From a bacterium (GTDB taxonomy: Bacteria > SZUA-79 > Acidulodesulfobacterales > Acidulodesulfobacteraceae): 36,345 bases of DNA. The stretch covers positions 1-36,345 of the forward strand of contig JAKAPT010000009.1 in assembly GCA_021806885.1 (NCBI GenBank), written 5' to 3'. Under the pieces are notes generated by a model, which saw only the letters and a program-made list of their open reading frames with translations, ran no database searches and had not been told where the DNA came from. Shown here in pieces: positions 31,336 through 36,345 of this stretch (its first letter is position 1; each line of letters opens with the position of its first letter). Position numbers and translations under genes: made by a program.

Positions 31336-31353
31336 TACGATAATATTATTGTA
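31336..31353. promoter_or_regulatory. Near-perfect 18-bp palindrome touching the recD2 start codon
   Basis: TACGATAATATTATTGTA has one mismatched pair (G/T). It overlaps the A of the recD2 ATG and follows a TATAAT (31322-31327), so it would sit at the transcription start. It may be an operator or a start-region hairpin; not demonstrated. Confidence 0.4.
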
Positions 31354-33734
31354 TGGAAGGGGAAAATATAACTATAACCGGCGTTATAAAGCGGGTTGTA
31401 TTCAGAAATAACGAAAACGGTTTTTCGATTCTAAATATTTTCTCGGACGGCCGGTCTCTAACCGCCTCCGGTACTTTCTTCGATACCCCCATTCCGCAAT
31501 CAAAGATCACCCTGACAGGAAAGTTCTCCCACCATAAGAAATACGGCCTTCAATTTGCCTTCGAAACATACGAGATTTTTACTCCTGGTTCCAGGACATC
31601 TGTAATCGAATATCTTTCCTCAAGCGTTTTTAAGGGTATAGGAAAGTCGCTCGCATCCGAGATTTATGACTCTTTTAAAGAAGACACTATCGATATAATT
31701 GATAATTTTCCCGAAAGGCTTAAAGATGTAAAAGGGATTGGAAACGCTAAGTTCGAGAGCATTGTAAAGGGCTTGAATGAAAGCAGGGGTTTCAGGAAAG
31801 CGATAATGTTTTTCAAGCCCTATCAGTTCAGCGATTATCAGGTCAAAGTAATTTATGAAAGGTTTAAGGATGCATCCGTAGCCGTCGCAAAAAATAATCC
31901 ATATTTATTCACAGAAATCAGAGGTATCGGTTTTAAAAAAGCGGATATCATGGCGCAAAAACTTGGAATCAAAAAAGACGATGCTCACAGGGTCAAAGAA
32001 GCCTTAATCTACTCCGTCAGGGTTCTATGCGAAAACACGGGAAATTCCTTTGTATACTTGAGGGACATTAAAGTTATTTTTGATGATATTATCGAAGGTT
32101 CGGGAGATTTTGGCAATATGGAAATCAATGGGGGTCCTGCGGCGTTAGGATCTGGTACGGATATTACAGGGGAAATGGATTTAAAACCATTCTTAAATGA
32201 ATTAAAAAATGAGAAAAGGCTTATTTTTGAGATTGAAAACGGCTCAAATCTCGAAAGAATATACCTGCCAGCCTATTATTATGCCGAAACCGGCGCGGCC
32301 AGGGAGATTAACAGGATCGTTTCCGTAAAAATGGATGATAAATTAAATAAAATTATGACCCGTTACAAAGAAAAAAAGGAGGATTTTCTCGTTGAATTAA
32401 CCGCGGAACAAAAATATGCCGTCCTGAACGCTCTTAGCCATAAAATTTCTATAATTTCGGGAGGGCCGGGAACAGGAAAATCTACTGTTATAAAGGAAAT
32501 CGTGGAATTATATTCAGGCCGGAAGGTTGCCCTTTGCTCCCTTTCGGGCAAGGCCACTCAAAGGCTTTCGGATATCCTTGGTAATAATATTTCACCCGGT
32601 GTTTCTATTTCTACTATTCACCGGCTTTTGGGCGCGAGATTTTCCGGAAAAGGGAACGATGGAGAATTGAGGGAGGATTCCGCGTATTTTTCTTATGACG
32701 AGAATAACAGGCTTCCTTTTGACCTTATAATCATAGATGAGATGAGCATGGTTGATATCATGATATTTTACAGGCTTCTCAAGGCCGTAAAGGATGAAAC
32801 CGTCCTTGTGCTGGTGGGGGATGTCAACCAGATACCGTCCGTAAACCCCGGGGACGTCCTCAGGGACATTATATATTCTGATTCCATGGATCCTTACAAG
32901 TTAAAGCCCGTTTTTCCCCTTACTTTTCTGACCAGGGTTTTCAGGCAGGCAGAGGGTGGTCTTATAAATATTAATGCCCAGAACATCCTTAAAAATGAAA
33001 AATTTATATTGTGTAAAAAAGATGAAAACTCATGCGAGTTCAGGATTTTTTATAAAAAAGACTACGATTACAAGGAATCCGGAAAAAAAGCCCTTCTGGA
33101 CGACTTGGAGGGTTTCATAAAAAAAGTCGCGGAAAAAAGAAAAAAGGCAAATAACGGGATTATAAACCCGGCCATGATGAAAGACGTGCAGGTACTTACG
33201 CCCATGAAGAGAGGCGAACTGGGGTATTATAACCTGAATAATATTCTGCAGGATATTATGAATCCGGGGCCCGCCGCCCTTGAGGACTGTTTTAAATGTA
33301 ACGGTATAGAATTCAGATCCGGCGACAGGGTGATTCAGAGAAGGAATAACTATGATACAGATGTTTTCAACGGTGATAGCGGGATTATTATCGAAATCAA
33401 CCATTCCGAAAAAAAAGTTATAATCGATTTTTCCGCTGGCACGGACGGTTCAAAAATAGTGGAATATGGTTTTATCGACACGTATGATAATATTGCGCTT
33501 TCTTACGCCCTTTCAATCCATAAATCGCAGGGAAGCGAGTTCGATAATGTAATCATATTGTTCCATCAATCCCACTATATGATGCTAAAAAAGAACCTTC
33601 TTTATACGGCCGTAACGAGGGGAAAGAAAAACGTCGTAATCTTTGGAACATATAAGGCCTTCGGAATGGCGCTGAATTCCAGGGAGGATTTGAGAAATTC
33701 GGGGTTTAAAGACAGGCTTTACGCGACTAAATAG
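31353..33734 (+). CDS. recD2: ATP-dependent DNA helicase, RecD2-like
   Basis: The 793-aa superfamily 1B helicase has the RecD2 layout. An N-terminal OB-like part (ITGVIKRVVFRNNENGFSIL) is followed by helix-hairpin-helix segments (KGIGKSLASEIYD, KGIGNAKFESIV and RGIGFKKADIMAQKLGI) and a two-domain motor. Walker A is SGGPGTGKST with Lys376. Walker B is LIIIDEMSMVD with Asp462 and Glu463. VGDVNQIPSV is motif III, YALSIHKSQGSEFDNVII motif V and YTAVTRGKKNVVIFG motif VI. RecD2 is a 5'-3' helicase acting in genome maintenance without RecBC. Slightly longer than usual because of a Lys-rich insert near residues 565-600. No nuclease partner is near. Confidence 0.93.
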   Translation: MEGENITITGVIKRVVFRNNENGFSILNIFSDGRSLTASGTFFDTPIPQSKITLTGKFSHHKKYGLQFAFETYEIFTPGSRTSVIEYLSSSVFKGIGKSLASEIYDSFKEDTIDIIDNFPERLKDVKGIGNAKFESIVKGLNESRGFRKAIMFFKPYQFSDYQVKVIYERFKDASVAVAKNNPYLFTEIRGIGFKKADIMAQKLGIKKDDAHRVKEALIYSVRVLCENTGNSFVYLRDIKVIFDDIIEGSGDFGNMEINGGPAALGSGTDITGEMDLKPFLNELKNEKRLIFEIENGSNLERIYLPAYYYAETGAAREINRIVSVKMDDKLNKIMTRYKEKKEDFLVELTAEQKYAVLNALSHKISIISGGPGTGKSTVIKEIVELYSGRKVALCSLSGKATQRLSDILGNNISPGVSISTIHRLLGARFSGKGNDGELREDSAYFSYDENNRLPFDLIIIDEMSMVDIMIFYRLLKAVKDETVLVLVGDVNQIPSVNPGDVLRDIIYSDSMDPYKLKPVFPLTFLTRVFRQAEGGLININAQNILKNEKFILCKKDENSCEFRIFYKKDYDYKESGKKALLDDLEGFIKKVAEKRKKANNGIINPAMMKDVQVLTPMKRGELGYYNLNNILQDIMNPGPAALEDCFKCNGIEFRSGDRVIQRRNNYDTDVFNGDSGIIIEINHSEKKVIIDFSAGTDGSKIVEYGFIDTYDNIALSYALSIHKSQGSEFDNVIILFHQSHYMMLKKNLLYTAVTRGKKNVVIFGTYKAFGMALNSREDLRNSGFKDRLYATK

Positions 33735-33825: not shown

Positions 33826-36075
33826 ATGAAAATTGATTTTATTTATAAAATCAGAAAAATTATTCCGGAAAGCGTGGACGAGTTTTATGAAAGTATCCTT
33901 GGACTCGAGTCGTTCCGCCAATTTTTCGATAGTCCCGAAAAATTGGAAAACCAGAGAAAGGCTTTTCTGGGTTTATTCGAAAATATCCTGGACAAATATG
34001 AAATATCTATAAAAGGATTAAAGGCCGATAAAACCTGCTCAAAAATCGAATTTTTCTTAGAAAAAGAAACCTGCCTCCAAAAATATATTAAAAAAGATGA
34101 TTACTTGAGTAATATCTCGCAGAAACTGGGCTCTATTCATTATTCCCTGGGAATCCCCCACCCGGTTTTAATGAGATCATTCGATACGTTTGAAGACATA
34201 ATAATAAAAAACATAGGAAAAGCATACGTATATAGAACTCCCTCAGCTACGCGAGGCGGGAAAATAGACGCAATAAACAATTCCATCCCCTTTATAAAAT
34301 CTTTGTTCGAAGGGTTTAAGAATGGAATATCGAGAATATATTTTTTCTATATTATTAAAGATACCAGGGTCCTTGTGGACAAGTTCAGAGAAATGTTTGG
34401 GAATATTCACCCCAAAAGCCTGAATCTTGCAAATGTAAACCTTCTTATAAAAACCCTGAATGAAATTAAAAGAAACGAATTAGACAAACATAAAAGCATC
34501 GACGAGTGCCCCCAGACAAAATTATTCCAAACCAATGAGTTTAATTCATATTTTCCGGGAAGAGACGAAAAGGAAACCTTGGTAAACCTGCATATCAACA
34601 TACATAAAGCAATCAAAAATCTTAGCTACTACATTAAACAGGAAAATTATAATTATTCCATACAGGTCTTTAATGAATTGTTTCGGCTTTTCCTGATGAT
34701 TTCCGTGTTTATTTATTCCAGGACGACCGGTGAAAGCGTAGACCGGGTTAAAAAGGAACTTATCGAACTAACGGATTATGACAAGCTGACCCACCTCTTT
34801 AACAAAGAAAGATTCCTGAAAGAACTGGATCTTTTAAACAAGGAGGGGCTCAAATTTGTCCTTGTTTATTTAAACATAGATTCCTTTAAAACCATCAATG
34901 AGATTTATGGCTATTCTTTCGGGGATACCGTGCTTGTTAAATTCGGGGGCATATTAAGAGGGATATTCAGGCACGAAGGGGATATGATTTCAAGGTTCGA
35001 CAAGGATGAATTTTTTATCATCGCGAGAAATGTCTGGAATGAGAATATAATTCTTAGAAGGCTCAGGGAAAATTTTGATTCGGAAAAGATAATTCTTAAC
35101 AATATAAATATTTCCCTGAAGGTAAACGGCGGGATAATAAAAAGCGATAAACGATTTTCAAGCAATGAACTTATCGGAATATCATACCAACTTGTCAATA
35201 AATTAAAGGAAATGGGAAGAGGGGCTGACAGCAAAGGTCTGCGCGGTAGCAGTTTTATAGGCTATTCCGGGGCTAAAAAACACTTTTCATTGTATAATAA
35301 AAAAATAGAAAAAAAGGATTTTATTTTAAGGGCCATAGAAGAAGACAGGATCATCCCCGTTTTTCAACCTATTCTTAACTTAAAAAACTTTAATATAGAC
35401 AGGGTTGAGGCACTTATGAGGATAAAAGGCAAGGATGGAAAATTACATCACCCGTATGAATATATCCTTATTGCCGAAGAGTTTGGCCTGATTGAGCATA
35501 TGGATCTTATCATGATAGAAAAATCCCTGAAAATTCTCAAGGATCTTAATAATGAGAAGAAAAGAGTAACTATGGATTTGAACCTTTCGGGGGAAGATAT
35601 TACGATAGTCGATTTTATAAATAAAATTGAAAATATAATAGATAAATATTTGATCGATCCTAAAAATGTAATATTCGAAATAACTGAAACCGCGGCAATC
35701 AAAAATATGGATATTGCCTCAGATTTTATAAACAAATTTAAATCCAAGGGGTTTGAGTTCGCGCTGGACGATTTCGGTATCGGGTTTTCATCCCTTTTTT
35801 ACATGAAGAATTTAAAGGTCGATTACGTAAAGCTCGACGGCTATTTTGTTAAGGATATCATAAAATCGGAAGAAAGCTTCTATCTTCTGTCGTCCCTGAT
35901 ATCAATGGCAAAGGCCTTTAATGCCAAGACAATAGCTGAATTTGTCGAAAGCAAAGAGATTTTGCAAAAATTAAAAAGAATGGATGTGGATTACGCGCAG
36001 GGATTTTTTATCGGGAAACCCTTGCCTGATGTAAAAAAAGGGTTTATAATTCCAAAGAAGGTCAGATTATTATAG
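33826..36075 (+). CDS. Globin-sensor-like, degenerate GGDEF, EAL protein (predicted c-di-GMP phosphodiesterase)
   Basis: The 749-aa protein has three parts. Residues 1-160 look like a globin-coupled sensor: FYESILGLESFRQFFDSPEK, then QKLGSIHYSLGIPHPVLM, where His105 would be the proximal haem ligand. Residues about 160-310 are helical and unassigned. The GGDEF domain (about 325-460) has DYDKLTHLFNKERF and NIDSFKTIN, but the signature reads DKDEF (392-396), lacking both glycines, so cyclase activity is doubtful. The EAL domain (about 500-740) keeps all usual catalytic residues: Glu528 (EAL), Asn of NLSGED, Glu618 and Glu621 (EITE), Asp648 and Asp649 (DDFG), Lys669, Glu705 and Gln725. I infer a haem/gas-controlled phosphodiesterase, possibly activated by GTP bound to the degenerate domain. 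Confidence 0.88.
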   Translation: MKIDFIYKIRKIIPESVDEFYESILGLESFRQFFDSPEKLENQRKAFLGLFENILDKYEISIKGLKADKTCSKIEFFLEKETCLQKYIKKDDYLSNISQKLGSIHYSLGIPHPVLMRSFDTFEDIIIKNIGKAYVYRTPSATRGGKIDAINNSIPFIKSLFEGFKNGISRIYFFYIIKDTRVLVDKFREMFGNIHPKSLNLANVNLLIKTLNEIKRNELDKHKSIDECPQTKLFQTNEFNSYFPGRDEKETLVNLHINIHKAIKNLSYYIKQENYNYSIQVFNELFRLFLMISVFIYSRTTGESVDRVKKELIELTDYDKLTHLFNKERFLKELDLLNKEGLKFVLVYLNIDSFKTINEIYGYSFGDTVLVKFGGILRGIFRHEGDMISRFDKDEFFIIARNVWNENIILRRLRENFDSEKIILNNINISLKVNGGIIKSDKRFSSNELIGISYQLVNKLKEMGRGADSKGLRGSSFIGYSGAKKHFSLYNKKIEKKDFILRAIEEDRIIPVFQPILNLKNFNIDRVEALMRIKGKDGKLHHPYEYILIAEEFGLIEHMDLIMIEKSLKILKDLNNEKKRVTMDLNLSGEDITIVDFINKIENIIDKYLIDPKNVIFEITETAAIKNMDIASDFINKFKSKGFEFALDDFGIGFSSLFYMKNLKVDYVKLDGYFVKDIIKSEESFYLLSSLISMAKAFNAKTIAEFVESKEILQKLKRMDVDYAQGFFIGKPLPDVKKGFIIPKKVRLL

Positions 36076-36086
36076 CCCTTAGGGCT
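36074..36086 (+). other. Small hairpin after the EAL gene stop codon
   Basis: AGCCC-TTA-GGGCT overlaps the TAG stop. No T-run follows, so it is a poor intrinsic terminator. GCCCTTAGGGCTTA differs by one base from GCCCTTCGGGCTTA inside the downstream repeat unit, suggesting a shared origin. Confidence 0.5.
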
Positions 36087-36345
36087 TATTGAGTAAAGGA
36101 CATGGTTGACATAATGGTTTTTAAATGGCGGAGAGAGAGGGATGAGCGTCCTTAAGGACGCTAAAAGCGGCGAACCCTCGGACGCCCTTCGGGCTTAGGG
36201 TTCTCATCCAAATATCCGTTATTGAGTAAAGGACATGGTTGACATAATGGTTTTTAAATGGCGGAGAGAGAGGGATGAGCGTCCTTAAGGACGCTAAAAG
36301 CGGCGAACCCTCGGACGCCCTTCGGGCTTAGGGTTCTCATCCAAA
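36086..36345. repeat. Tandem direct repeat, 133-bp unit (two copies, second cut by the window end)
   Basis: Copy 1 is 36086-36218 and copy 2 is 36219-36345; all 127 shared bases are identical. The bases before the copies differ (C and G), so the identity starts exactly there. Each unit contains TTGACA (36106 in copy 1), a GGAGAGAGAGGGAT stretch, a perfect palindrome AGCGTCCTTAAGGACGCT (36145-36162), and a second stem GAACCCT/AGGGTTC (36172-36178 with 36197-36203) capped by GCCC-TTC-GGGC. GGATGA (36140-36145) pairs with TCATCC (36204-36209), closing a three-way junction. No ORF of note lies inside. On the minus strand it resembles a tRNA-Ser 3' half. Confidence 0.92.
36127..36203 (-). other. 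tRNA-Ser-like 3' half with an insert in the T loop (inside repeat copy 1)
   Basis: Reading the minus strand, a type II variable-arm-like hairpin GCCCGAAGGGC (36094+100 region, 36184-36194) is followed by GTCC. Then comes a T-stem GAGGG with loop start TTCG, about 27 nt of extra sequence containing the AGCGTCC palindrome, the loop end AT, and the 16-mer CCCTCTCTCTCCGCCA. That 16-mer equals a T-stem strand (5), acceptor strand (7), discriminator G and CCA. The acceptor strand TCTCTCC and the G discriminator fit serine tRNAs. No matching 5' half, D arm or anticodon arm is present, so this is not a working tRNA. The same structure recurs in copy 2. Confidence 0.5.

Follow-up and report, generated by a model that had tools for sequence, protein, structure and literature searches.

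The rtT (rttR) repeats behind the tyrosine tRNA gene tyrT of Escherichia coli are a decades-old oddity, long known and poorly understood. Read on the tRNA strand, the tyrTV locus of E. coli K-12 consists of the tRNA tail AATCCTTCCCCCACCACCA, a spacer of ~59 nt, an inverted T-arm (GGGGAAGGATGAGAAGC), the direct T-arm half AAGGTTCG, several hairpins and the tail once more, and its minimum-energy fold includes a P1 helix of 10 pairs. The features that mark RtT include release of a stable RNA from the tRNA transcript and, within the unit, a reading frame for the protamine-like Tpr. In Actinobacillus pleuropneumoniae, Northern analysis detected RNAs of the RtT family at tRNA genes for Asn and Lys (PMC4986893), and in Salmonella the number of rtT repeats varies (PMC2658671). 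The 3'ETS of the glyW-cysT-leuZ tRNA transcript, a trailer with its own function, serves as an sRNA sponge (PMC6191717); it is comparable to the trailer function proposed here for the arrays, but differs in that it is not known as a tandem tRNA-tail repeat.

The DNA analyzed here (the window) is a whole contig of 36,345 bases (G000:C7) from a bacterial MAG, so that its end is also the contig end. The repeat that closes it is very probably a tandem array of tRNA tails rather than a stand-alone element; the identity of the array is secure, and its function is something that we infer. The array is made up of the following parts:

36086-36218, minus strand: repeat unit adjoining the GGDEF-EAL gene, 133 bp (E=5e-65 against itself; 91% identity to an array in the relative G003)
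36219-36345, minus strand: following unit, of which the contig end leaves 127 of 133 bp (k=127 assembly signature)
36086-36125, minus strand: incomplete additional spacer copy closing the array distally; relatives typically have such partial copies at their array ends
36126-36143, minus strand: tRNA-Ser 3' tail copy from T-loop to CCA, ATCCCTCTCTCTCCGCCA, identical to tRNA-Ser tails in relatives
36139-36210, minus strand: three-way-junction module, copy 1 (covariance model R1, 75 bits)
36145-36162, minus strand: P3 hairpin AGCGTCC-TTAA-GGACGCT, at the normal T-loop closing point (TTCG^AATCC)
36184-36194, minus strand: P2 apical hairpin GCCC-GAA-GGGC, with a C(GNA)G loop
36197-36203, minus strand: P2 5' strand GAACCCT, inverted T-arm, pairing with 36172-36178 (AGGGTTC, direct T-arm 5' half)
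36204-36209, minus strand: P1 5' strand GGATGA, part of the inverted T-arm, pairing with 36140-36145 (TCATCC)
36210-36258, minus strand: 49-nt spacer from the tail copy to the three-way junction, its sequence specific to the locus
36259-36276, minus strand: second tRNA-Ser 3' tail copy, identical to tRNA-Ser tails in relatives
36272-36343, minus strand: three-way-junction module, copy 2 (covariance model R1, 75 bits)

The preliminary description of this DNA had reported two identical head-to-tail copies, and the stretches 36086-36212 and 36219-36345 are indeed 100% identical (127/127 nt), with a start-to-start spacing of 133. Its three helices (GGATGA/TCATCC, the GCGTCC-TTAA-GGACGC arm and GAACCCT...AGGGTTC) were all recovered, as was its 10-nt linker (TAAAAGCGGC, 36162-36171), and its statement that no coding sequence explains the repeat holds, no long ORF lying within the units in a listing that covered ORFs of at least 80 aa. 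The outer helix (36140-36145/36204-36209) can be lengthened to GGATGAG/CTCATCC, and the GAACCCT...AGGGTTC arm contains a further apical hairpin, GCCC-TTC-GGGC (36184-36194), that was absent from that account. That account also overlooked that the strand to read is the minus strand, that each unit carries a tRNA-Ser 3' end, and that the array probably belongs to a tRNA gene past the window edge. On the minus strand every unit ends in ATCCCTCTCTCTCCGCCA, the tail from T-loop to CCA, and the ATCC of the P1 3' strand is itself part of this tail copy. The folding z-score of the repeat was -2.66 on the minus strand versus -1.19 on the plus strand, and its folding thus departs from randomness chiefly on the minus strand.

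Each unit is composed of a locus-specific spacer of ~50 nt, an inverted T-arm, a hairpin, a direct T-arm 5' half, a hairpin that replaces the T-loop, and the tail ATCC...CCA. The order of parts is constant, running from one tail through the local spacer, the inverted T-arm (GGATTCGAACCC), the hairpin, the direct T-arm 5' half (GAGGGTTCG) and the hairpin at the T-loop closing point to the next tail. The linker before P3 could often form an alternative hairpin in Ser-type units, CGCT-TTT-AGCG or AAGT-ATTTAA-ACTT, that competes with P3, and the two might act as a switch. In some units (arrays of loci L051, L052 and L095) P3 contains a larger inserted palindrome, TACGTAAGCAGGCGTTTAC...GTGCCTGCTG; a similar palindrome occurs in a tRNA-Arg pseudogene (L138, about 2860-2930), and the palindrome is a separate dispersed repeat.

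The copy number of two is a lower bound, because exact 127-nt identity ending at a contig end is the signature of a k=127 assembly graph loop; the true number at this locus is at least two, and the array presumably continues past the window end. The same signature raises the question of whether the second copy, which is exactly 127 nt long and stops where the contig stops, is merely a graph overlap. We consider this very improbable, since three to four units lie inside a 227-kb contig of the relative G003 and others inside long contigs of further relatives, and the concern touches only the copy number in the window. Contigs of the MAG break within tRNA-Ser arrays at G000:C11:1, at G000:C13:1 and at the end of G000:C7, leaving tRNA loci hidden or split.

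A search of 99 relatives gave matches in most genomes of the family, some of the weaker ones being the tRNA tail itself, with copies spaced ~127-150 bp apart where arrays exist. Related copies were likewise present in the MAG's own genome (contigs C11, C71 and C52), so the element does occur beyond this contig. In relatives, intact tRNA-Ser genes (GCU, UGA, CGA and GGA) lie directly upstream of the arrays and are followed by one to four units, which are identical within nearly all arrays and 67-81% identical between Ser loci. In G003, for example, three identical 138-bp units and then one second-type unit of 130 bp stand behind a tRNA-Ser(GCU) gene, and it is the second-type unit that shares 91% identity with the window unit. 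The tRNA-Ser(GCU) locus adjoins a recD2 homologue in 14 relatives, and the window likewise presents a gene with RecD2 domains (31353-33734), followed by a GGDEF-EAL gene and the array. The GGDEF-EAL gene (33826-36075) separates recD2 from the array here, whereas recD2 is close to the array in relatives. Genes for tRNA-Ser(UGA), (CGA) and (GGA) were found in the MAG assembly and a tRNA-Ser(GCU) gene was not; because of this gap and the recD2 synteny, the missing tRNA-Ser(GCU) gene probably sits just past the window end. Counting against an array behind tRNA-Ser(GCU) is that the gene itself lies outside the assembly, so that the link in this genome is drawn from synteny.

Comparison with E. coli tyrT was made by inspection. 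In both cases tandem, near-identical units stand directly behind a tRNA gene (as seen in relatives of the MAG, and expected from recD2 synteny at the window), and end in a tRNA tail copied from the same T-loop point, which in E. coli is AATCC...CCA, 19 nt. Both have a spacer of about 50-60 nt, an inverted T-arm that pairs with the tail (GGGGAAGGAT/ATCCTTCCCC), a direct T-arm half (AAGGTTCG), and further hairpins inserted before the tail, and they have in common a GGAT-GA-GAA change within the inverted T-arm. They differ in unit length (178 bp in E. coli versus 133 bp in the window), in their hairpins, and in the tRNAs concerned, which is tRNA-Tyr in E. coli versus tRNA-Ser, -Gln, -Asn and -Tyr in the family. 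At its gathering thresholds Rfam returned only tmRNA and tRNAs on the window. The Rfam RtT model (RF00391) matched 0 of 30 family genomes at E<=0.001, with a positive E. coli control, and at E<=1 on ten loci its sole match was the E. coli locus (L160); R1, in turn, did not match at E. coli tyrT. Because each model misses the other's loci, we describe the window array as having an RtT-like architecture, not as a member of RtT; the likeness, seen by eye, is one of plan and possibly not one of common descent. Other weak Rfam matches on the arrays (sX4, Plastid-psbl-rps4) fell below cut-offs and mostly overlapped tRNA or T-arm copies. CRISPR and integron arrays also set tandem units behind a fixed anchor, but they differ in having variable spacers or cassettes, whereas the present units, spacer included, are identical in nearly all arrays. 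A CRISPR array, with identical repeats and different spacers, was rejected on this ground, as was an integron attC cassette, since the junction, read by eye, is GTTCG and not a GTTRRRY/RYYYAAC core.

Shorter units of 90-93 bp were found behind tRNA-Gln, tRNA-Asn and tRNA-Tyr genes, where the motif GATCACGACCGAAGGGAGTC is joined to the tail. The distance from CCA to this motif was 52-55 nt at all loci, and the spacer sequence differed between them. The matches read in four genomes were all tRNA-linked, and among 85,000 genomes 11 of the 12 stretches with the exact motif came from relatives; the remaining match, in a planctomycete (Planctomycetota), had no tRNA nearby and looks like chance within a gene. 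In G003, for which all listed tRNA loci were fetched, arrays stood behind four tRNA-Ser genes, one tRNA-Gln gene (with a longer, 141-bp variant of the unit) and tRNA-Asn, and behind no other tRNA type. The array-bearing tRNAs have the T-loop GGTTCGAATCC in common; some others with this T-loop (Trp, Glu, Arg) are without an array.

The covariance model R1, which represents the Ser-type module, was searched in 386 sampled genomes (30 of the family and 356 others). Within the family it matched 21 of 30 genomes, all from genera g1, g4, g5 and g6, and none of the seven genomes of g2 or the single genome of g3. No credible match was obtained among the 356 genomes outside the family. Three weak matches there (E 0.001-0.004) were rejected: one was without a tRNA, and two were intact tRNA-Ser genes, which match because their antisense T-arm and variable arm together look like the module. 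The element was missing from many individual tRNA-Ser loci as well as from g2 and g3, and it is therefore not essential. The P3 hairpin pattern occurred 33 times in the family, at tRNA-Ser array loci wherever these were read and at a tRNA-Arg-derived pseudogene on contig C71.

That pseudogene (L138, 2860-2990, on G000:C71) derives from tRNA-Arg(ACG) and carries hairpin inserts in its anticodon loop and in its T-loop at CGA^ATC; the functional tRNA-Arg(ACG) gene, on C28, has the same downstream flank. The tRNA-Ser gene copies situated upstream of the functional one have T-loop inserts of ~20 nt, such as GGAACGCAGTCAGCGAAGCTC, and those of the CGA type have inserts in the anticodon arm as well. 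Such copies were seen at L011 2069-2510 (on contig G000:C52 of the MAG), near 1824 on the minus strand of L051, near 1702 of L067 and near 327 of L074, and most of the inserts retain an AGC-GNA-GCT minihairpin across genera.

To what extent the helices are constrained is indicated by the homologous copies. In 32 distinct Ser-type units, 94% of cells were paired in the structure described above, and 50 cells were changed on both sides, versus 18.3+-3.6 in shuffles. The covariation score was 0.225, versus 0.125+-0.007 for shuffles and at most 0.117 for slid versions of the structure. MAFFT had misaligned two P3 types, and pairs recounted on a structure-aware layout gave a score of 0.245 versus 0.123+-0.008. 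Complete pair flips were seen, for example C-G in 17 and G-C in 15 units within the apical hairpin. The signal lies in the cell counts, because pairs with any change on both sides numbered 7, not in excess of shuffles (5.6+-1.1). Units of one locus type share ancestry, which inflates the counts, and these do not represent independent events. Paired positions covary in the homologous copies and do not vary freely, the outcome that the preliminary description had set as a check, and covariation supports the helices as selected structure. Wobble pairs on the tRNA strand were G-T in 24 cases versus A-C in 10, the A-C pairs lying only at the outer helix ends, and this bias points to the tRNA strand as the folded one, whether RNA or DNA.

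An RtT-like tRNA-tail array behind tRNA-Ser(GCU), read from the minus strand, is in our judgment a probable overall explanation of the window repeat. As to what such an array does, we favor a trailer function, with about an even chance that it is correct, and a structured tRNA 3' trailer of unstable copy number is the most likely form. The array would form the 3' trailer of the tRNA transcript, and each unit would fold on the tRNA strand, P1 and P2 locking the surplus copies of T-arm and tail into a closed three-way junction, so that the tRNA 5' half could pair with its own first tail. The trailer might then be set free in pieces of structured RNA, in the manner of E. coli rtT, and the direct repeats would make the copy number unstable, with recombination or slippage keeping the units identical. 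We lean modestly toward an RNA trailer over DNA, since the array immediately follows the tRNA in the same orientation and RtT RNA of the E. coli type has been observed as a transcript.

In DNA hairpins, loops of the C(GNA)G and C(GNNA)G kind have exceptional stability, and GTCA, GATA and GACA are not RNA GNRA loops. Because the apical P2 loops are GNA or GNNA in 31 of 32 units (GAA 21, GTA 4, GTCA 3, GATA 2, GACA 1, with AAA in the one other), versus 1 of 16 background C-closed hairpins in the window and 3 of 18 at the G003 loci, the hairpins could instead act as single-stranded DNA in replication or recombination, driving tandem duplication or targeted insertion at the T-loop, with any transcript incidental. 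The similar AGC-GNA-GCT inserts in anticodon and T-loops of tRNA pseudogenes, and partial end copies that show duplication junctions, fit such a DNA-level element. The P3 loops, however, are not consistently GNA, no enzyme is linked to the repeat, the motifs that were searched for were confined to tRNA genes, and the wobble bias marks one strand, though it would suit single-stranded DNA of that strand equally well; we regard a DNA-level role as a somewhat doubtful possibility. Of the preliminary proposal of a structured RNA or a single-stranded DNA substrate for a transposase or recombinase, selected structure is upheld by the helix covariation and the enzyme substrate finds no support, given that the repeat matched no phage, plasmid or viral contig and its copies remain at tRNA genes. 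A mobile-element origin was rejected on the same lack of matches. The tRNA T-loop is a known target region of integrases, and tandem hairpin units at this point might suggest an integron-like cassette array or an array of attachment sites, but the units hold no long ORF, their spacer is local flank and not cargo, an intact tRNA comes first with altered T-loops after it, and no GTTRRRY core was read by eye at the hairpin, making this reading scarcely credible. Slippage at tRNA genes might also have duplicated the tails, which would then survive as selfish or neutral sequence with no function; this would agree with the patchy presence, the absence from genus g2, the arbitrary partial end copies, the range of one to four units and the identity within arrays. 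Such neutrality is unlikely, since the covariation argues for constraint, the spacer length is fixed at 52-55 nt despite variable sequence, and the same architecture recurs behind tRNA genes of several kinds and, as read by eye, in E. coli.

The architecture of E. coli tyrT is now met in an unrelated bacterial family, behind tRNA-Ser genes of four isoacceptors and behind tRNA-Gln, tRNA-Asn and tRNA-Tyr genes. Tentatively, and as a possibility short of an even chance, we suggest that tRNA-tail arrays may form a general, repeatedly arising bacterial class built by a specific mechanism, in which GNA-loop hairpins are inserted at the T-loop point of GGTTCGAATCC tRNAs (Ser/Gln/Asn/Tyr) and the tail is duplicated, with E. 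coli tyrT as one example of a broader system controlling the maturation of tRNAs or the integrity of their genes. The dozens of diverged units in the family provide comparative power to address the purpose of the structure, the constant T-loop start of the copied tail, and the choice between RNA and single-stranded DNA. In such MAGs, the arrays explain the recurrent assembly break and the missing tRNA genes.
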